Shown: in pieces, positions 14,046 through 54,974 of the stretch
How positions within the stretch are numbered: position 1 is the first letter of the stretch
Layout: every line of letters begins with the position of its first letter
Origin: Bifidobacterium breve
Lineage (GTDB): Bacteria > Actinomycetota > Actinomycetes > Nanopelagicales > Nanopelagicaceae
Direction of reading: 5' to 3'
DNA: 64,000 nt
Assembly (NCBI GenBank): GCA_945898065.1
Contig: CAMDHH010000003.1
Location: 1 to 64,000 of the forward strand
Program-made: the position numbers and the translations under genes
The notes under the pieces: model-generated
The model's input: the letters and a program-made list of their open reading frames with translations, nothing else
Told to the model about the DNA's origin: nothing
Databases searched by the model: none

Positions 14046-14118
14046 GCCCCGATAGCCCAATGGCAGAGGCAGAGGACTTAAAATCCTCCCAGTGTGGGTT
14101 CGACCCCCACTCGGGGCA
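14046..14118 (+). tRNA. tRNA with anticodon UAA (Leu?), short variable loop
   Basis: Folds by hand as a complete cloverleaf: acceptor GCCCCGA/TCGGGGC (14046-14052 with 14111-14117), D arm, anticodon stem GAGGA/TCCTC with loop CTTAAAA (anticodon TAA, 14079-14081), a 5-nt variable loop, T arm GTGGG-TTCGACC-CCCAC, discriminator A and no encoded CCA. UAA reads leucine UUA codons, but canonical tRNA-Leu has a long variable arm and this one does not. Fragments of its 3' half recur downstream (17335, 18725, 20010, 21170), so it acts or acted as an attachment site. Confidence 0.9.
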
Positions 14119-14256
14119 CTATCTGTGTGTAATTTATGACATTTACCTAACCGCTACACAAATATCCTATTAACAATGCATGGACAAAGGTCATGGAATC
14201 CCTAGAAATCTCAAGTTGCTCAAGGCGTGTAGCTAACTTAGGGTACGACTCAGTGG

Positions 14257-14293
14257 AGTCTCGAATCTGAGGTTTTGCCTTTACTTCGAGACT
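14257..14293. promoter_or_regulatory. 9-bp inverted repeat upstream of LRR gene
   Basis: Perfect inverted repeat AGTCTCGAA (14257-14265) and TTCGAGACT (14285-14293) with a 19-nt spacer, ending 15 nt before the ATG at 14309. It could be a leader hairpin or an operator. The rest of 14119-14308 holds no gene that I can see. Confidence 0.45.
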
Positions 14294-14308
14294 GAAAGAT
14301 TCATATAA

Positions 14309-16144
14309 ATGCTCAAGAGAATCATTAAAATATTCTTAGTAACAATTTTGGCACTCCCACAATTAGCAATTGTAAATCCTGCATGGGCTACAGACACCAC
14401 TTTCACTTGTGGAGACGGCGGCTATACATATACTGTAAACGCTACGGGCCATCTAACTCATGGGTCCTGTTCAGCCCCGTCATTAGTGCTTGATTCAAGT
14501 GTTGTATTCATCGATTATGCGAGCCTGAATGGCTGGCAAATAGAATCTTTAACTATTCCAGCGAGCGTTACAACAATCTCGGACGGTGCGTTCTATGGTC
14601 TTCCGAAATTAGAAACCATAACTGTCGATGCATCAAATACTAATTTCAAAACAGTCGGTGGCGTTCTAATGAATATTTCAGAAGATCGTATTATCTATTA
14701 TCCGAGTAAATTACCCTCACAAAATTACAATGTACCCAAAACTATTCTGAAGATAGATAATCGTGCATTTAGTTGTCTAACTTATCTTGAGGTAGTACAG
14801 ATAAACACTTATACAACGAATATCGACCCAGCATCTTTTATATCTTGTCCATACATTGCTTCCTCCTTACAAGAAATAAATGTTTTGACAGGAAACTCTT
14901 CCTATATTTCAATTGATCACGTACTTTATTCTGCAGATGGAAAAAATTTGTTGAATTTTCCAGCTAATTACCAGCAAAGAGATTATGTGGTGCCAAACGG
15001 AACGCTAACCATTGCAGGTAGTGCATTTGAGTACTCAAATATTCGAAGTATTACATTCCCAAGCTCTCTTACCACCATCGGTTCATATGCTTTCCAAAGT
15101 GCCAGAAGCCTTGAATCAGTCGGAGAATTTCCTGCCAGTTACACATATTCTGGAGCATCCTCACCTTTCTTTAATGCAGACAAAGTTACGAGTTTTACTG
15201 TCTCGGGCGATAACCTCTCATTCAAAAGTGTTGGGGGAGTTTTATTCTCGAAAAACGGAAGTAATCTTCGTGAATACCCGGGAGGAAAAGAGAGCACCGA
15301 ATACCGTATTCCAGATAGCGTGATTACGGTCGATGGTCAGGCCTTTGTAAATAATTATATAAAAACCCTCGTTGTGCCAAGTACTCTTACAACTCTTGGA
15401 TACTCCTATATTTCACTAGATTATTTGGTATTTAGTGGTACTAGTTCAGTATCTCAGATCGATGGTTACAATTTAGTTGATCGTTTCGTCTATTGTGGAA
15501 CCACAAACTCAGTTATAAATAGTTTTGCAACTGGCAGTGGTAAAATCGTAGAGTGCATAGATAGCTATTTTGTGGACGAGGCGGAAGTTGTGGCTGCAAG
15601 AGTGGCTGCGGCTGCAAGAGTGGCTGCGGAAGCTGCGGCTGCAAGAGTGGCTGTCGAGCTAGCTGCGGCAAAAGCGGCTAAAGAAAGACGTGAGGCAGAG
15701 AAGAAATCAGCGCGTAGTGAGATTTCAAGTAACGCTATCGTTGTGGAGAAATTATCTGTTGAAACATTTGATAAGGCAGAGATTCCAGGTATTACGGCTA
15801 AGAATATCGATGCAGTACAGGCAGAAATTCTGGCACTTCCTGCAGAGGCTCGAGCAGATATATCTCAAGTTCTAATGATTGCCCGCAAGTTTGAAGTAGT
15901 GGAGATTATTGCTTCGGATCGAATCAACTCCATTTCCTCGGCTCCTTTAGTTGAGATTGGTCTGATTCCAGAAGATAGCAAGTACAAGTCAACACTTGTT
16001 GCTGCACTGAGAAAATTGCCAGTAACGCAGCGCTCTGATCTCTCCTCTATCAAGACAGCGATTAATACAAAGTTGAAAGAGATTCAAGAAAGATTGGATC
16101 GCACGGCTGCAATAAGGGCGCGAATCCCTACACGTTTATCGTGA
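14309..16144 (+). CDS. Secreted BspA-like leucine-rich repeat protein
   Basis: 611-aa exported protein. Signal peptide MLKRIIKIFLVTILALPQ... with cleavage expected after AWA. Residues about 50-400 are LRR_5/BspA-type repeats (LTIPASVTTISDGAFYGLPKL, LTIAGSAFEYSNIRSITFP, FPSSLTTIGSYAFQ). Residues about 427-470 form a long Ala/Arg/Glu-rich helix with repeated AARVAAxAA units, followed by a helical C-terminal region. LRR_5 repeats often mediate surface binding; ligand unknown. Unlike its neighbours it lacks the CPxGYKKK tail and is not followed by a tRNA fragment. First cargo gene after the tRNA. Confidence 0.85.
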   Translation: MLKRIIKIFLVTILALPQLAIVNPAWATDTTFTCGDGGYTYTVNATGHLTHGSCSAPSLVLDSSVVFIDYASLNGWQIESLTIPASVTTISDGAFYGLPKLETITVDASNTNFKTVGGVLMNISEDRIIYYPSKLPSQNYNVPKTILKIDNRAFSCLTYLEVVQINTYTTNIDPASFISCPYIASSLQEINVLTGNSSYISIDHVLYSADGKNLLNFPANYQQRDYVVPNGTLTIAGSAFEYSNIRSITFPSSLTTIGSYAFQSARSLESVGEFPASYTYSGASSPFFNADKVTSFTVSGDNLSFKSVGGVLFSKNGSNLREYPGGKESTEYRIPDSVITVDGQAFVNNYIKTLVVPSTLTTLGYSYISLDYLVFSGTSSVSQIDGYNLVDRFVYCGTTNSVINSFATGSGKIVECIDSYFVDEAEVVAARVAAAARVAAEAAAARVAVELAAAKAAKERREAEKKSARSEISSNAIVVEKLSVETFDKAEIPGITAKNIDAVQAEILALPAEARADISQVLMIARKFEVVEIIASDRINSISSAPLVEIGLIPEDSKYKSTLVAALRKLPVTQRSDLSSIKTAINTKLKEIQERLDRTAAIRARIPTRLS

Positions 16145-16293
16145 GGCTCGAGCGAAGCTCGCACCCCCCTGCCTTTGCCATGAGGCAAGAGCAGATTCCC
16201 CGTTGTTATTTTTAGGTTATACGCCGGTGCTATAGCGCTAGAGATATTTTCAGAGGCATAAGATTCATTAGAAAGGTATTGCTCTAATCTCCT

Positions 16294-16322
16294 ACGTCTC
16301 ATACCCTCAAGTTGTGAGACGT
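16294..16322. promoter_or_regulatory. 8-bp inverted repeat across protease start codon
   Basis: ACGTCTCA (16294-16301) and TGAGACGT (16315-16322), spacer 13 nt, straddle the GTG start at 16314. As RNA this hairpin would bury the start codon; as DNA it could be an operator. The 169-nt gap 16145-16313 also has a small hairpin CGAGC-GAA-GCTCG near 16149-16161 without a T tract. Confidence 0.4.
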
Positions 16323-17336
16323 AAATTTATAACAACTGTTCTTTTATCAATACTTTTTATCCCTTCAATCTCTCCTGCCAATGCTGGCTTAGATGCACCG
16401 ATAAATCTTGATAATCCAAGAGTGGTGCCGATATATGGTGGCCCTTTTGATGCGGCCAGTTGGTCCGGTTATTTATACTCATCACGAATTGTATTTTCTG
16501 CTGCACACTCTACTTACAAATTTGATAGCAACGGTAATCGAATATTAAATGAACCAGATCAGATCACGGTGGGTAGACCAAATTCATCTGCCAAAGACTT
16601 TACTGGCAGAGTTAGGGTAATCAAAACATTTGTAGGCGACTACAAAATGTCAAAAGTGGGTGGTTTAAATGATTTTATTGTTTATGTCCTCGAAAAAGAC
16701 TTAGTTTCAATATCTAATGGAAAATTACTAACTGTAGATATCGAAAAAGAACTAGTAGCAGCTCAAACAGAGGTAAGTGCGCACGGATATGGCGAGTATC
16801 GAGGTCGTTGCGCCCCTGAAGAAACTCTTCCTTGCAAGAAAGATTGGAATAATCCAAATCAAAGGACTAGTGAACTTCCTCGATCACCAACGGGAAGTAT
16901 GAAATTAGTTGCACCATCTTATTTCCCTTGGCTGTATTCGGATCAAAAAGAAGCTTTATCAAATGAGACACTATTGTCAGATAACCTCGTTTGCTCAGGA
17001 GATTCCGGTGGTCCTATCACAGCGTTGCATGAGGGAGAATCAATTTATTTAGGTACAACACCTCTTGGATTTACTGAGGGCTATTTCTGTGGAGCAGGCA
17101 CCTCCAGGACTGCTTCTAGACCTTCGGGATATTTTTCACCTGTTCATAAACATTTAGATTTACTCAAAGAGGCAGAGGCGTTTGTGGCACAACAGAGTGC
17201 GTCTAGTGCCTCGAATAAAGAAACCGTCGTGACTCCTAATCTTAAGAAAACCGCCATTACCTGCATCAAAGGTAAGGTAACCAAAAAAGTAACCGCCGTT
17301 CGCCCTAAATGCCCTGCTGGTTATAAGAAGAAATAA
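16314..17336 (+). CDS. Secreted trypsin-like serine protease with CPxGYKKK tail
   Basis: 340-aa S1-family serine peptidase. Signal peptide MRRKFITTVLLSILFIPSIS, cleavage after ANA. Catalytic His in FSAAHS (residue 65), a candidate Asp in LNDFIVYVLEKDL, and Ser in VCSGDSGGPITAL (about residue 231), so all triad members appear present. Cysteines at RGRCAPE/LPCKK and VCSGD/YFCGAG could form disulfides. The last 30 residues are the shared tail with CIKGK, KKVTAV and CPAGYKKK. Start is GTG. Its stop codon TAA runs directly into a near-perfect copy of the tRNA 3' half. Confidence 0.85.
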   Translation: MRRKFITTVLLSILFIPSISPANAGLDAPINLDNPRVVPIYGGPFDAASWSGYLYSSRIVFSAAHSTYKFDSNGNRILNEPDQITVGRPNSSAKDFTGRVRVIKTFVGDYKMSKVGGLNDFIVYVLEKDLVSISNGKLLTVDIEKELVAAQTEVSAHGYGEYRGRCAPEETLPCKKDWNNPNQRTSELPRSPTGSMKLVAPSYFPWLYSDQKEALSNETLLSDNLVCSGDSGGPITALHEGESIYLGTTPLGFTEGYFCGAGTSRTASRPSGYFSPVHKHLDLLKEAEAFVAQQSASSASNKETVVTPNLKKTAITCIKGKVTKKVTAVRPKCPAGYKKK

Positions 17337-17372
17337 ATCCTCCCAGTGTGGGTTGGACCCCCACTCGGGGCA
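17335..17372 (+). repeat. tRNA 3'-half copy 1 (att-like)
   Basis: 38 nt matching tRNA positions 14081-14118 with one difference (C to G in the T loop, 17355). Starts within the stop codon of the protease gene and runs to the tRNA 3' end, including GGGGCA. The best preserved of the copies and the one nearest the intact tRNA. Confidence 0.92.
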
Positions 17373-17454
17373 TGACTTCATACCTTGAGTCTGCGCGCAG
17401 AATTCTTTGCGAATATCTGTTGCCGTCGGCATAAATAACCCCGAGAATCTCGGT

Positions 17455-18726
17455 ATGAAAGCAATGGGAAAAAGGGAACTTCTTAGCCGTCTAATTCTTG
17501 TTGCCGCATTAGCTATTTCTCCAATAGCGCCGGCCAGCGCCGCCGATCCTTTTCCAATGCCACCAGAACCAAAGTGGTGGAAACAGACTGGTCTAACCGA
17601 TATCCGTTATGGTCAATGGCTGCCTTGTCGCGATGAATGGCAGATTACAAACGATTGCATATCAGCGATTCACCTTTATAAATCAGATGGAACAGATGCA
17701 GGGGCCCTTACTTATCAGGTTCCGAAGGATTTCAAACCTAGTGAGGCTGTGCAATATTGGTTGATCTCAAATACTCCTCAAGGCGAACCTATTGAAAACT
17801 CTGCTTACGTAAAAGATGAAGTGGTCTCCATCTCCCATTGGAAATTACCAGCAGGAATAACAAATAGCGATGGCACGGATGTAGTCCATTCATATGTTCA
17901 CCTTATGAATGGTAGTTTGCAGATCAACACCATCGCATTCAGTCAAACTCAAGGCTCTCTTCCTGAAGGCTATTATTTTGAGTTTAAATTAAAAAGCAGT
18001 GGCTTTGCAAAAAAAATCAAGTGGGTGCTTTCTAATGTGCGCGATCCAGAGGTGAGTGTTGCTGGCGACATAATCACGGTAAAGGGACTTCCTGAAAATA
18101 GCCCGTCTGCAAACACTGGCGATCAAGTCTGCGAACAGAACTTACTTAAGGCCAGGTCTACCCAAAGAAATATCGCAGTAAATATGATTTATTACGATGC
18201 AGGTAATAAAACCGGTGAAACTCGCCCTGATGATGTGGTTCTCGGAACTAATGGTTGGTGGTGCCTGAGTGATTTCCGCTTTGATCGCGAGAGCCAGCAG
18301 ATCATTGTGAAAGTAGGCAATGTTCACTTTGATGAATTCGGTAACGAAATTCAAGGTTGGATGGAGTTAAAAGTTAAGGGCAATCGCGCTCGCGAATGGT
18401 GGGGAATCGATCCAGCTATTGCTGCCGGCTATGCCAAAGTAGAAGTTTCTTATCCAGATGGCACCAAAAAAGTGGCCACAGTCACCGCTAAATATGATTC
18501 GAAAAATGACTGGATCAATCTGCGCGCCTATGGCTTTACCTATTCGACGCCACAGTTGGCGATTAGCTTTAAACCTCCCGCTGAGGCTAACAAAGTGGTT
18601 CCGGCTGCTGAGGCTAAGAAGTTGGCTCCAGCTAAAAAAATGACGATTATCTGTGTGAAAGGTAAAGCAATTAAGAAAGTCAGTGCAGTGAAGCCAACAT
18701 GTCCTACTGGGTATAAAAAGAAATAA
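17455..18726 (+). CDS. Secreted protein of unknown function with CPxGYKKK tail
   Basis: 423 aa. Signal peptide with LILVAALAISPIAPASA, cleavage after ASA. No family recognised. Mature part is beta-rich with many Trp/Tyr (PPEPKWWKQTGLTDIRYGQWLPC), and residues about 335-375 (YPDGTKKVATVTA...LRAYGFTYSTPQL) match a segment of the next cassette protein, so the two are paralogs. The C-terminal 28 residues are the shared tail ending CPTGYKKK. An inverted repeat CCGAG-AAT-CTCGG (17441-17453) lies just before ATG 17455; ATG 17464 is an alternative start. Cargo of the tRNA array. Confidence 0.75.
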   Translation: MKAMGKRELLSRLILVAALAISPIAPASAADPFPMPPEPKWWKQTGLTDIRYGQWLPCRDEWQITNDCISAIHLYKSDGTDAGALTYQVPKDFKPSEAVQYWLISNTPQGEPIENSAYVKDEVVSISHWKLPAGITNSDGTDVVHSYVHLMNGSLQINTIAFSQTQGSLPEGYYFEFKLKSSGFAKKIKWVLSNVRDPEVSVAGDIITVKGLPENSPSANTGDQVCEQNLLKARSTQRNIAVNMIYYDAGNKTGETRPDDVVLGTNGWWCLSDFRFDRESQQIIVKVGNVHFDEFGNEIQGWMELKVKGNRAREWWGIDPAIAAGYAKVEVSYPDGTKKVATVTAKYDSKNDWINLRAYGFTYSTPQLAISFKPPAEANKVVPAAEAKKLAPAKKMTIICVKGKAIKKVSAVKPTCPTGYKKK

Positions 18727-18761
18727 ACCTCCGAGTGTGAGTTCGACCCCCACGCAGGGCA
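18725..18761 (+). repeat. tRNA 3'-half copy 2 (att-like)
   Basis: 37 nt aligned with tRNA 14081-14118: one single-base deletion (the T of AAATCC) and four substitutions by hand alignment. Begins inside the stop codon of the preceding tail-bearing gene. The T-base deletion is shared with copy 3. Confidence 0.85.
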
Positions 18762-18814
18762 GCATTACGGACTGTTTAGATATTTTAGACTGAATATGGA
18801 GCAGAATAGAAATC

Positions 18815-20011
18815 ATGAAGGCAATACTCATTAGCTTGCTTTGTGCAACCCTTACGTGCGCGTCTATTACCGAAGCTATCGCGAGTAAAGTTGAAATAGA
18901 TACTCCGGGGCAGTTTACGCTGCTCCCATGTGTCAACAAGTCTGACATAGACTGCATTGAGAGTTTTACTTATTCATATCCAAAAGTGGAAAGCACACCA
19001 GTCCAATTAGTCAAAAAAGCTTCAGGATCCACTCAAGATAAATTTGGACAGGATATTGAGAATTCCATGTCGGGCTGGTCTTTCATAGACAATCTTGGTT
19101 CAAGCAGAAGTTTCTCCACTGTGGCAACACTTAGTTCTGAAAAATACATGTCCCCGGCATACAATAAATTTTATCCAAGTTTATGGTTCTACATTTATGA
19201 TATGAAGCGCTTCGATGTCGAAGCGGGACTGAAGTTCCAAGTTATTTTTCGAACTTCTTGGTTGAAGCCAGTAAATGCGGCTGCATATGGTCGAAATGCG
19301 GACTTGGTTCAAAAAACAATTCAAGGTGGAAATACATTCACATTCACTGGCAGCCCCTTTCTATCAACTAGTTTTTTGGATTCAACCAAATACGGGCAAT
19401 TAGGCGAATCTGGATCTACTATGAAATCGGATTCGGAACATCCGACACTTTATTTTCTAATAGATCATGCAAGCAGTATTCCAAATGGTTCGATGTATGA
19501 CGCAAGGTGCGCGTATGCCGGGTACACCTTTGAATCAAGTAATGGAATCGCAGCGGGGCAACCCACCATGGATTCTCCAAATTCCCTAAATTTTGTCATT
19601 TACGCGCCACACTTTTTTTCAGACGGAACTCTTAATACTGGATTTTTTTCCGCTAATATCCACAAGGATTATTTGGACTGTATGTTTCCCGGAAATACCT
19701 TGACTAAATATCCAGAAATTGCAGTCTCAATTACCGATTCGGATGGAAGCAAGCAGGTCGCAACTACTAGCTCAACCATTCAAAACGGAATATATAAGAT
19801 CCGTGCTTCAGGATTTCATTTCAGTGCACCACGAATTGTTGTTACTGGAGTTGCTAGCAGTACACCCGCACCAGCACCGAGCGCATCAGCGAAATCAGAT
19901 TCGGCTCCCATGCTGGCCACTAAGAAAACTATCTCCTGTGTAAAGGGAAAAGTCGTCAAGAAGGTCACTGGTGCTAGCCCTAAATGTCCTACTGGATATA
20001 AAAAGAAATAA
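18815..20011 (+). CDS. Secreted protein of unknown function with CPxGYKKK tail (paralog)
   Basis: 398 aa. Signal peptide MKAILISLLCATLTCASITEA, cleavage after AIA. No known family seen. Residues about 300-345 (SITDSDGSKQVATTSS...IRASGFHFSAPRI) match the preceding cassette protein, preceded by a comparable acidic/aromatic region. A short Pro/Ala/Ser linker (STPAPAPSASAKS) precedes the tail ISCVKGK...CPTGYKKK. GGAG at about 18798 precedes ATG 18815. The stop codon again opens a tRNA fragment. Codon choice looks more AT-rich than the housekeeping genes, judged by eye. Confidence 0.75.
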   Translation: MKAILISLLCATLTCASITEAIASKVEIDTPGQFTLLPCVNKSDIDCIESFTYSYPKVESTPVQLVKKASGSTQDKFGQDIENSMSGWSFIDNLGSSRSFSTVATLSSEKYMSPAYNKFYPSLWFYIYDMKRFDVEAGLKFQVIFRTSWLKPVNAAAYGRNADLVQKTIQGGNTFTFTGSPFLSTSFLDSTKYGQLGESGSTMKSDSEHPTLYFLIDHASSIPNGSMYDARCAYAGYTFESSNGIAAGQPTMDSPNSLNFVIYAPHFFSDGTLNTGFFSANIHKDYLDCMFPGNTLTKYPEIAVSITDSDGSKQVATTSSTIQNGIYKIRASGFHFSAPRIVVTGVASSTPAPAPSASAKSDSAPMLATKKTISCVKGKVVKKVTGASPKCPTGYKKK

Positions 20012-20041
20012 ACCTCCCAGTCTGGGTTACCACTCGGGGCA
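20010..20041 (+). repeat. tRNA 3'-half copy 3 (att-like, eroded)
   Basis: 32 nt matching the tRNA 3' half with the same T deletion as copy 2, a 5-nt deletion in the T loop and stem region, and one substitution. Begins in the stop codon of the preceding gene and ends ACTCGGGGCA, like the tRNA 3' end. Confidence 0.82.
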
Positions 20042-20070
20042 CAACTGAACACCGACTTAGTTGATTTTAA

Positions 20071-21087
20071 TTAAAGAATAGAAGGATTAACTAAAATCTT
20101 TGGACCAACTCCTGCGCCTGCAGGTCGCTTGCCAAGGAAGACATCCCCAACTTCATCTAGTCCGATGGTTGCGCCAACAACGATTCGAGGATCGACACGA
20201 CCTGATTTAATAAAGTCAATTGAGTGTGGCAACCCAGGTGAACCAGAGAGAATTCCGATCGTTGTTATATCTTTGAAAACCAATTTTCGGGAATCAATAA
20301 GTGCAGAATTATTATCAAGACCGATCAATACAATTCGCCCACCCGGTTCGACTAGATCGACTAACTTTGCTGGAACTTCACGATCAAAAGTTGCATCAAT
20401 GACTACGTCATAGCCACCATCGACCTCGATCATCTTTTCACCAGCAGATTTGGCGCCAACTTCAATTGCCAACTTGATTGTCACGGGATCTTTTCCAACC
20501 ATGTGAACGGTAGCGCCCATTGCAATGCAAAATTGGGCACACATTAAGCCAATGGTTCCAGTGCCCCAAATTAAAATCTGCTTACCCGGCCCCGCTTGAG
20601 CGGCATCAGCCACTCGCCAAGCATTAGCTGCTGGTTCAACAAGTGCACCGATAGTGTCATCAAAAGATTCAGGGATCTCGTGTAAGAAGCGAGCAGGAAT
20701 TGCTAACTGTTCGGCGAGTGCACCACTCCAGCCATTTCGAATTCCAACTTCAAAGCGGGTAGCGCAAGTATGTTGGCGTCCAGTTGTGCAACGTTTGCAT
20801 TTACCGCAACCGAGCATGACATCACCAATAAAGCGACGTCCGATTAATTTGGCATCCACCCCTGCGCCAACACTGATAACTGCCCCAGTCCATTCGTGGC
20901 CAAGGCGCATCGGATACTTTGCTTGACCATCATGGAGGTAAGGCATCGAACCATTGAAGATTTCTACATCAGTTCCACATATACCGACGCGATTTACTCT
21001 AACTATCACTTCACCCGCTGAAGCAATGGGTGGCGCTACATCTTGTAATTCAAAGGTTTTTGGCGCCGTTACAACAAAGGCTTTCAT
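20071..21087 (-). CDS. Zinc-binding alcohol dehydrogenase family protein
   Basis: 338-aa medium-chain dehydrogenase, sorbitol/threonine-dehydrogenase-like. Catalytic zinc ligands in GICGTDVEIF and GHEWTG; structural-zinc cysteines in CGKCKRCTTGRQHTC; Rossmann nucleotide site GTGTIGLMCAQF. Substrate probably a polyol or sugar-derived alcohol, not decided by sequence. It sits between tRNA copy 3 and the pseudo-tRNA but on the opposite strand to the other cargo, so it may be cargo or an older resident gene. Confidence 0.88.
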   Translation of the reverse strand: MKAFVVTAPKTFELQDVAPPIASAGEVIVRVNRVGICGTDVEIFNGSMPYLHDGQAKYPMRLGHEWTGAVISVGAGVDAKLIGRRFIGDVMLGCGKCKRCTTGRQHTCATRFEVGIRNGWSGALAEQLAIPARFLHEIPESFDDTIGALVEPAANAWRVADAAQAGPGKQILIWGTGTIGLMCAQFCIAMGATVHMVGKDPVTIKLAIEVGAKSAGEKMIEVDGGYDVVIDATFDREVPAKLVDLVEPGGRIVLIGLDNNSALIDSRKLVFKDITTIGILSGSPGLPHSIDFIKSGRVDPRIVVGATIGLDEVGDVFLGKRPAGAGVGPKILVNPSIL

Positions 21088-21169
21088 AGTGCTGCAATCT
21101 TATTTGATAGTAATTGCAAAATGGAAGTACTACGGATTAGTTATAAATCCTTTGTGATAGATGGAAACG

Positions 21170-21242
21170 GCCTGCATAGTCCAATAGCAGTGGCAGAAGA
21201 GTCAAAATCCTCCCAGTGTTGATTTGACCCCTACTCAAGGTG
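21170..21242 (+). pseudogene. Degenerate full-length copy of the UAA tRNA
   Basis: Aligns end to end with 14046-14118; about three quarters of positions match by hand, with the AAAATCCTCCCAGTGT block intact. The acceptor stem has lost pairing near positions 5-6 and the anticodon loop has changed to GTCAAAA, so a working tRNA is unlikely. Marks the distal edge of the array. Nothing else is visible in 21088-21272. Confidence 0.8.
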
Positions 21243-22906: not shown

Positions 22907-23683
22907 ATGCAAAGTTCGAACCCGGTCCTAGGACGCGCTTTCGGAAACGGTAAGCGCGGATATGCCGCTTTTGATCCAAGCTCAACAACTCAAGCAGATT
23001 CTTCGCAGTTAGAAGATCTCTATAACGCCCCAGCAGCATCATCGCTGCGTATGGGACGTATGACTATTGACGATGTAGTCACTCGCACTGGAATTTTATT
23101 TGCAGTACTTGTTGTAACAGGTGCTGGCGCATGGACACTCAATTTTGGTGGCGGCGCACTCATGGTTGGTCTGCTTGGCGGATTTGTACTCGCCATGGTC
23201 AACTCATTTAGTAAAACTGTTCGCCCAGCACTCATCATTGCCTACGCTGCATTCCAAGGTGTTGCACTCGGTACTTTGAGTCATATTTACAACGATGCAT
23301 ATCCAGGAATTGTTAGCCAAGCAGTAATCGCAACGCTATGTGCATTTGCAGGAATGCTCTTTGCATATCGCAGCGGACGAATTCGTGTAACTCCTAAGTT
23401 CACACGCGTGATGCTCGGTTCACTCATTGGTTACCTAATCCTTTCAGTTGTAACAATCTTTACCGGCTTCCCAGCTGGTGGATTAGGACTCTTGATTGCT
23501 GTCGCAGGAGTTGGACTTGCATCATTTTTCCTAGTACTTGATTTCGATCAAATCGAAAAGGGAATTGCCGCAGGAGCACCAGAACAAGAATCATGGAGAG
23601 CTTCATTTGGCCTCATGGTCACTGTTGTATGGCTCTACCTAGAAGTTCTACGTCTGCTATCTATTCTTCGTAGCAACGACTAA
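22907..23683 (+). CDS. Bax inhibitor-1/YccA family membrane protein
   Basis: 258-aa integral membrane protein with about seven segments after a hydrophilic N-terminus that starts MQSSNPVLGRAFGNGKRGYAAF, typical of actinobacterial BI-1/YccA proteins. Family members are linked to calcium leak and membrane-protease regulation; the bacterial role is not settled. GGAG at about 22898-22903 precedes the ATG. Ends in a strong terminator shared with the convergent MFS gene. Confidence 0.9.
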   Translation: MQSSNPVLGRAFGNGKRGYAAFDPSSTTQADSSQLEDLYNAPAASSLRMGRMTIDDVVTRTGILFAVLVVTGAGAWTLNFGGGALMVGLLGGFVLAMVNSFSKTVRPALIIAYAAFQGVALGTLSHIYNDAYPGIVSQAVIATLCAFAGMLFAYRSGRIRVTPKFTRVMLGSLIGYLILSVVTIFTGFPAGGLGLLIAVAGVGLASFFLVLDFDQIEKGIAAGAPEQESWRASFGLMVTVVWLYLEVLRLLSILRSND

Positions 23684-53777: not shown

Positions 53778-54974
53778 ATGAGAGTTATCAAGAAGTACCT
53801 AATTGTGATACTCACGTTTAGTTTAATTTCCTTGAACCTACCATCTGCTTTTGCTGCTGAGACTGTTTCTAATATCCAGATAAGTAAAGCAGATGCTGTT
53901 CCTGGAGAATTATTAATAATAACTGCTGATATTTCATCTCCAAGTGGTGTTGATTATGTAAATATGCTCATATATCCGCCAAGTGGTGGAAGCAAAGGAT
54001 TCAGCACCTATTTTCGACTGATTTCAGGAACAGAACAGCAAGGAACATGGAGTATGAATTTCAATATTCCCTCTACGGCAGAAAATGGAACTTGGAAAGT
54101 AGTTGTTGGTCTGGGCACAAAAGATCAAACATCTAAAATTGGTTATGGCCCTTCAATAAATGTCTCCGGATCTACCGTTGTTGAAACTAAAGTTTCGAAT
54201 GTGAGACTTTCTAAAACCAATGCTAGAGCGGGAGAAGAACTGACAGCGTTTGCAGATATTTCGTCTCCTACTGGTGTTGAATATGTAAATATGATCATAT
54301 ATCCGCCAAGTGGTGGAAGCAAAGGTTTTAGTACTTATTTTCAATTGATATCTGGAACTGAACAGCAGGGAACGTGGAGTATGAAATTTAGTATTCCGCT
54401 ATCTGGCGAAAATGGTGATTGGAAGTTTGTTGTTGGCCTGGGCACAAAAGATCAAACATCTAAAATTGGTTATGGCCCCTCAATAAAAGTAAGTACTGCA
54501 GCATCTGAAGCAGCAGATAAAGCCGCAGCAGATAAAGCTGCAGCAGATAAAGCTGCAGCAGATAAAGCCGCAGCAGATAAAGCCGCAGCAGATACGTTCA
54601 ATGGCTTAGTCAGTACAATAAATAAATACAAAAGTGAAATCTCGAATCTTTTTATGGGCTTTCCAGGATATTTCCAACAAAATCCAGAAATTAAGTCTTC
54701 ACTTCAGCAAGCGCTGGATTATGTTATTCCTACTACTCCCTCCATTGCTGACATTGAATTTATGAATGACCTAATTGCAGGAGGGATTGGCAAGAAAGCA
54801 TTAGCTTCGGATGTCTTGTTAGCACAACTTGGTATCACTAAATATCAAGCATTAGAAAAAATAAAATCTAAGACTGTGAAAAAAATTACGACAGTAACCT
54901 GCGCTAGAGGAAAGACAGTCAAAAAAGTCTCTGCCGTGAATCCCAGGTGTCCTACTGGATATAAGAAAAGGTAG
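53778..54974 (+). CDS. Secreted two-repeat protein with CPxGYKKR tail
   Basis: 398 aa. Signal peptide with LIVILTFSLISLNLPSAFA, cleavage after AFA. Two near-identical repeats of about 95-110 residues (VSNIQISKADAVPGELL... and VSNVRLSKTNARAGEEL..., both with SGTEQQGTWSM and VVGLGTKDQTSKIGYGPSI), Ig- or invasin-like in pattern. Then a (AADKA)n helix of about 5-6 units, a helical domain, and the same cationic tail as the tRNA-array proteins (CARGK, KKVSAV, CPTGYKKR). No tRNA fragment follows it. RBS AGGAG before ATG 53778. Binding or surface role is inferred. Confidence 0.78.
   Translation: MRVIKKYLIVILTFSLISLNLPSAFAAETVSNIQISKADAVPGELLIITADISSPSGVDYVNMLIYPPSGGSKGFSTYFRLISGTEQQGTWSMNFNIPSTAENGTWKVVVGLGTKDQTSKIGYGPSINVSGSTVVETKVSNVRLSKTNARAGEELTAFADISSPTGVEYVNMIIYPPSGGSKGFSTYFQLISGTEQQGTWSMKFSIPLSGENGDWKFVVGLGTKDQTSKIGYGPSIKVSTAASEAADKAAADKAAADKAAADKAAADKAAADTFNGLVSTINKYKSEISNLFMGFPGYFQQNPEIKSSLQQALDYVIPTTPSIADIEFMNDLIAGGIGKKALASDVLLAQLGITKYQALEKIKSKTVKKITTVTCARGKTVKKVSAVNPRCPTGYKKR
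54510..54594 (+). repeat. 15-bp tandem repeat encoding ADKAA
   Basis: About 5-6 tandem 15-bp units of GCAGATAAAGC(T/C)GCA type inside the secreted protein gene, nearly identical at DNA level, differing mainly by C/T at one wobble site. Length variation by slippage would keep the frame. Confidence 0.85.

Follow-up and report, generated by a model that had tools for sequence, protein, structure and literature searches.

Streamlined aquatic bacteria such as the Actinomarinales are known to carry additive flexible islands next to tRNAs (PMC7771536). In Methylopumilus, the island fGI-2 is marked by repeated copies of the final 20 nt of a tRNA-Lys and ranges from 330 bp to 42 kb, with 1 to 63 genes (PMC10872708). 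Here we describe a similar arrangement in a member of the Nanopelagicales, found in the first 64,000 nucleotides of contig CAMDHH010000003.1 (the whole stretch of DNA analysed, from here on "the window"). Directly behind a tRNA-Leu(UAA) gene lies an island of ~7 kb with, in this order, a leucine-rich-repeat gene, three genes that share a conserved protein tail (tail genes 1 to 3) and a dehydrogenase-like gene, and each of the three tail genes ends at a fragment of the tRNA. The locus is probably a Planktophila genomic island that targets the tRNA and grows by addition, the ends of its genes serving at the same time as recombination homology.

The islands of Actinomarinales and Methylopumilus share with this locus the small cassettes, the partial tRNA direct repeats at the ends and growth by repeated insertion. 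Three features, none of them mentioned in the consulted passages on those islands, set the present case apart from them: stop codons that abut or lie within the repeat, a tail shared by the cargo and a repeat that marks gain or loss. Islander-type tDNA islands, in the accessible text (PMC4383910), have as endpoints an intact tRNA and a displaced fragment, the form taken by the island of one relative (G133, see below), whereas the island in the window lacks an integrase and contains several internal fragments. Tycheposons (as summarized in the available part of PMC10872708) are also cargo islands bordered by tRNAs, but they are 4-200 kb long and carry a tyrosine recombinase, while the units here are single genes without one. 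In the partly accessible literature on Nanopelagicales we found no description of the tRNA-Leu(UAA) site. Islands next to tRNAs are common; the version involving gene ends seems to be new.

Gene ends and tRNA fragments

The intact tRNA-Leu(UAA), the insertion target, was identified by ARAGORN and RF00005 at 14046-14119 (features are on the forward strand unless otherwise stated). Tail gene 1 (16314-17336, tail codons 17241-17333) is trypsin-like by a weak Pfam match (PF00089, E 5e-4, its 20.4 bits being slightly below the cut-off of 20.6). Tail gene 2 occupies 17455-18726 (tail codons 18631-18723; a longer reading from TTG 17407 is possible) and tail gene 3 occupies 18815-20011 (tail codons 19916-20008). 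Exactly as the original prediction had it, the stop codons ending at 17336, 18726 and 20011 abut the 3' half of the tRNA, with the text TATAAGAAGAAATAAATCCTCC, TATAAAAAGAAATAAACCTCC and TATAAAAAGAAATAAACCTCC, respectively, and copies 2 and 3 both lack one T relative to copy 1.

The fragments located by local alignment (17335-17372, overlapping the stop codon; 18725-18761, with the T deletion at the junction; and 20010-20042, with the T deletion plus a 5-nt deletion) match the tRNA from about position 36 through its 3' end. The first has one mismatch to the tRNA and the second has 6 in 37. Over the 93-nt repeat made of the tail and the first fragment bases, copies 1 and 3 are 63% and 77% identical to copy 2. 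A chance origin of these repeats was ruled out by shuffling: the local alignment scores of 71, 49 and 40 compare with a maximum of 23 when the 64 kb were shuffled three times, and the 3'-half pattern had 0 matches in 100 shuffles of the window. Besides the three window genes, stop codons within tRNA-derived sequence were found at loci L139, L060, L169 and L194. At L060 (3889-3929) the stop of the tail gene is the TAA anticodon triplet of the tRNA, and at L194 (3138-3178) the stop of a gene without the tail is likewise the TAA of the anticodon loop.

The protein tail itself (C-x-KGK, KKV, CPxGYKKK) proved to be real. A model of it matches 15 places in the window's own genome, and eight of ten single-contig genomes of the same genus carry 1 to 23 matches, the other two none. 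The cargo at the insertion site is biased towards these genes: they make up 32 of the 128 genes (open reading frames of at least 100 aa) at 37 hotspot loci, as against the 15 matches in the whole own genome, and 31 of these 32 are co-oriented with the tRNA, while among the other genes 53 of 96 are (Fisher p 3.5e-6). Typically, then, an insert carries a secreted tail-protein gene in the orientation of the tRNA, its stop codon abutting or lying inside tRNA-derived sequence. An AlphaFold model of the mostly beta gene 3 product has low overall confidence (mean pLDDT 67.8) and shows the tail as a two-stranded hairpin (pLDDT near 87). Comparing this model with the PDB by Foldseek produced nothing useful (the highest TM, by query length, was 0.17), and a search of Pfam (E up to 0.01) and NCBIfam (E up to 0.1) gave no family covering the tail. 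That the tail retains the protein at the surface is our guess. In two genomes, tail genes end directly where a convergent tRNA-Phe has its 3' end (L014, 1501-1590; L258, 893-1801, reverse strand).

Tail exchange and the gene 3 unit

In the genome G106, gene 3 is the only missing unit. On its contig C17 the end of gene 2 is joined directly to fragment 3, and the fragment at this junction shows both deletions of fragment 3 of the window, the single T and the 5 nt. The gene 2 body matches that of the window at 262 of 278 aligned bases (plus 27 gap columns), and beyond the fragment the two genomes are collinear at 91.5% identity up to the tRNA copy at the far island end, a stretch that includes a cargo gene on the reverse strand (20071-21087) that we take to be zinc-type alcohol dehydrogenase-like. 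Over the last 27 nt, gene 2 differs from gene 3 at one position and from its own G106 ortholog at six (counted by eye). Since gene 2 of G106 is joined to fragment 3, and the end of the window gene 2 is closer to gene 3, the unit between the repeats was either acquired by the window lineage or lost from G106. The common descent of modules 2 and 3, proposed originally from the T deletion, is supported by that deletion at the gene 2/fragment 3 junction of G106 and by the near-identical 27-nt ends. In G106, a further tail gene (L325, 1651-2919, reverse strand) lies on the opposite side of the decayed tRNA copy and runs towards it; its position in the window is taken by a gene that is presumably phytoene-dehydrogenase-like.

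Elsewhere, too, tails are exchanged between unrelated or paralogous genes. The body of gene 2 is 84% identical at the DNA level to a gene of G004 located outside the hotspot, while the tails are only 62% identical. The reverse is found at L068 (4351-7185, reverse-complement coordinates), where adjacent genes with unrelated bodies have tails 93% identical over 84 nt, the similarity starting sharply at the tail codons and stopping three bases past the stop codon. A tandem pair of genes in G003, G004 and G005 has crossed tails: the tail of G003 A agrees with that of G005 B at 0.95 and the tail of G003 B with that of G005 A at 0.94, with 0.87 between the two B tails, 0.82 between the B bodies and ~0.66 between A and B bodies. 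More generally, adjacent tails share more codons (0.502, 54 pairs) than tails from different genomes (0.431, 5047 pairs; p 2e-4), and tail identity is higher within arrays (0.726, 14 pairs, vs 0.648, 482 pairs; permutation p 0.0022). The proposal that N-terminal bodies are swapped relative to the tail is supported (gene 2 vs G004, and L068), and the conflict between body and tail histories that it named as its check was found, by pairwise identities rather than full trees.

The insertion hotspot and competing explanations

The site behind this tRNA is a hotspot in Planktophila. We collected 76 loci from the 69 of 135 genus genomes that carry the 3'-half pattern (up to 3 mismatches) plus named records, a non-random sample in which some named records duplicate genomes of the first set. 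Twenty-six loci were empty (<300 nt between the tRNA and the flank gene), 21 occupied and 29 not callable. The anchor on the right side is a conserved gene (22907-23683), presumably Bax inhibitor-like. In two relatives (L069 and L088) there is a single tRNA and nothing between the flanks, which are 84-92% identical to those of the window and match it through 14119 on the left and from 21176 on the right, so that 14120-21175 is exactly what is missing. These flanks, joined at a single tRNA, identify the island (14120-21168) as an insertion. Its far end is followed by a decayed, nearly whole tRNA-Leu copy (21169-21242). The intact tRNA on the left, the displaced copies (the fragments and the near-whole one) and the empty sites in relatives are what is expected of a tDNA-targeted island, and serial partial tRNA direct repeats delimit small gene units of variable content at one site.

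Tyrosine integrases adjoin the tRNA-Leu or its fragment in four genomes, G012 (PF00589, E 6.5e-23), G072, G074 and G133. Relatives of the G012 integrase (E 1e-10) occur in 14 of 135 genomes, several of them next to other tRNAs; around the other tRNAs of G012 itself (30 of 38 loci, 1.5-kb flanks) one weak repeat was all that we found. PF00589 matches numbered one in G000, two each in G003, G004, G005 and G013 and three in G012. In the closed, single-contig genome G133 (L348, 1840-9818) an integrase island is bordered on one side by the intact tRNA-Leu(UAA) and on the other by another tRNA-Leu-like copy, which has the 3' part of the tRNA and a foreign 5' part. Among named records, the 3'-half pattern was matched in IMCC26103 (CP015604), a cultured Planktophila that carries both an array and an integrase, in IMCC19121 (CP015605) and in several Candidatus Planktophila records; the exact pattern had 0 matches in viral contigs. 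A strict tail-plus-fragment pattern matched once in 296 genomes of the order, the mismatched copies of the window escaping it. Given the hotspot occupancy, the island-free relatives and the adjoining integrases, the fragments are best read as integration scars.

The scenario that we favour would run as follows. Elements would insert at tRNA-Leu(UAA), leaving a displaced tRNA 3' half at the far end of the insert, and repeated insertion, a step with strong though indirect support, would build the array. Since all tails are homologous and genes end right at the scar, the end of the tail and the fragment together form a direct repeat of ~45 nt flanking a gene on both sides. Recombination between such repeats would add or remove whole genes (one case, gene 3 in the window vs G106), and gene conversion between tails would separate bodies from tails (several cases), the exchange being mediated perhaps by an integrase in trans or by homologous recombination.

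A number of observations weigh against this scenario. At 0.67, 0.67 and 0.71, the DNA identities between the three tails are no closer than those of random tails (among 6903 tail pairs, with a mean of 0.627 and an sd of 0.112, such values are reached by 45%, 45% and 23%), and codon identity at shared residues is 0.38, 0.24 and 0.53 vs a mean of 0.425. One array, L099, holds two tails at 0.47 identity. The gap between stop and fragment is not clearly shorter behind tail genes than behind others (Mann-Whitney p 0.088, 9 vs 10), and although fragments decay with distance from the tRNA, as stacking would predict, in the three arrays with at least two of them, the order in the window is imperfect (scores 71, 49, 40, 46). 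The clean gain or loss of a unit comes from one relative whose contig begins inside gene 2, and the likeness of the gene 2 and gene 3 ends is suggestive only, since 27 of 1953 pairs of KKK tails also match within one mismatch over the last 27 nt. Finally, no integrase gene lies inside the window island, the whole window has no PF00589 match, and the only such match in its own genome (85% complete) is on another contig.

Tail and scar, moreover, are often found apart. In a set of 130 nonredundant tail genes, which is enriched for the hotspot, tRNA-Leu-derived sequence occurs within 100 nt past the stop in 14 and is absent in 116. Ten of the 14 are of the 3'-half type and four of the inverted type, including one at the noise limit (L098) and one that merely faces the tRNA copy (L325). 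Conversely, fragments are also abutted by genes without the tail: the 26 nonredundant fragments follow a tail gene in 9 cases, a co-oriented gene without the tail in 10 and an opposite-strand gene in 7. The ortholog of gene 1 in G107 has kept its tail and lacks the 3'-half fragment, and a fourth tail gene of the window (53778-54974), taken as a control, has no tRNA fragment at all. This gene, the decayed tRNA copy at 21169-21242 and the inverted tRNA 5' half upstream of gene 1 had escaped the original prediction. From the background tail identity, the 116 genes without fragment, the tail-less genes at fragments and G107 we conclude that the histories of tail and tRNA scar are as a rule separate and that the two act jointly only where they adjoin. 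The original prediction of a single repeated module was right about copies 2 and 3, as the G106 junction also indicates, and too broad for all three copies as a unit.

Plain stacking by an integrase could be invoked instead, with separate captures at the tRNA, abutment resulting from the short spacers of these streamlined genomes and no recombination between modules. The empty and occupied sites, the integrases and the tail-less genes abutting fragments all agree with this, as does the median spacer of 11 bp given for a related isolate in Table 1 of PMC7771536 (available in part). Yet the G106 difference has the tail-end/fragment repeat as its borders and lies within the array, not at the tRNA, the T deletion is common to copies 2 and 3 and G106, and tails have been exchanged between genes, which makes stacking alone unlikely, if still worth considering.

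We regard it as very unlikely that a single gene-plus-fragment unit was duplicated in tandem and the copies then diverged. Such a duplication would account for the C-terminal domain and tail shared by genes 2 and 3 (37% over 142 columns, E 2e-11) and for the single difference between their 27-nt ends, but the body of gene 1 is unrelated to those of genes 2 and 3, so that duplication is hard to hold for gene 1, the three tails stand at background identity and the body of gene 2 has a relative (85% identical) outside the hotspot. That the fragment is instead a terminator or processing signal of the mRNA, kept by selection behind tail genes, could be thought of in view of its presence at three consecutive stops and of the co-orientation with the tRNA; with 116 of 130 tail genes lacking it, fragments decaying and no Rfam family beyond tRNA at the gathering score, we give this idea hardly any credit.

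The leader and the meaning of the array

The first gene of the island encodes a secreted BspA-type leucine-rich-repeat protein without the tail (14309-16144; PF13306, E 1.5e-26). Behind it and upstream of gene 1, at 16145-16242, is a conserved cassette leader that includes a 5' half of tRNA-Leu in inverted and decayed form, detected by alignment and by the sequence model R1 (66.1 bits, the same sequence having been among those used to build it). At ten loci, ~270 nt between the tRNA and the first gene are in common, and the bodies behind the leader are mostly unrelated, e.g., in L085 and L098, whose leaders agree at 0.90 and whose bodies score 31, against a maximum of 47 in shuffles. Among 36 body pairs, L098-L086 is clearly related (157) and L053-L085, L087-L086 and L087-L046a are barely above shuffles (48 to 57). 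In L053 (2865-2969) and L087 (1561-1665) the leader contains an exact inverted copy (24/24 nt) of tRNA positions 8-31. The leader model matches in 11 of 24 chosen genomes, including behind tail genes distant from the tRNA (L346 and L347). At that locus without tRNA-Leu (L347, 2436-4190, and L346, 4385-5275, both reverse strand) the inverted 5' half follows the stop of a tail gene; in L347 it is preceded by CTCTCAC-TCCTC, and L046 joins the same left arm to the tRNA 3' half.

An antisense regulator co-evolving with the tRNA was tried and rejected as an explanation of the leader: of three loci with a variant tRNA, only G133 fits its own, the leaders of L046 and L173 fitting the consensus tRNA better. 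An Rfam search of the leader gave nothing except tRNA and sub-threshold matches, and no covariation was seen (0 of 9 pairs changed on both sides). Integron cassette arrays have one gene per unit, the gene end beside the recombination site and a fixed polarity, and the units here resemble them. The sites here differ in being derived from a tRNA, and neither IntI nor attC was found, neither having been sought with a model of its own. An integron-like system with the two halves of a single tRNA as its sites is quite unlikely in our estimation. Its units would run from a TCCTC core (the 3' strand of the anticodon stem) through the inverted 5' half, a promoter leader, a variable secreted-protein gene, the tail and the stop to the next TCCTC. 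With similarly long odds, the palindromic anticodon stem might allow the left arm CTCTCAC two partners, the 3' half as in L046 and the inverted 5' half as in L347, and such units might chain both at the tRNA and at the distant locus.

For the additive island with recombining gene ends that we prefer, the biological meaning lies in the hosts, which are among the most abundant bacteria in lakes and have very small genomes, yet variable secreted proteins. One caution is that conservation of a protein tail at the DNA level may reflect exchange and not function alone. If the scenario is true, single secreted-protein genes would come and go using their own conserved end as exchange homology, which would explain how a variety of secreted proteins is kept without much mobile-element baggage.

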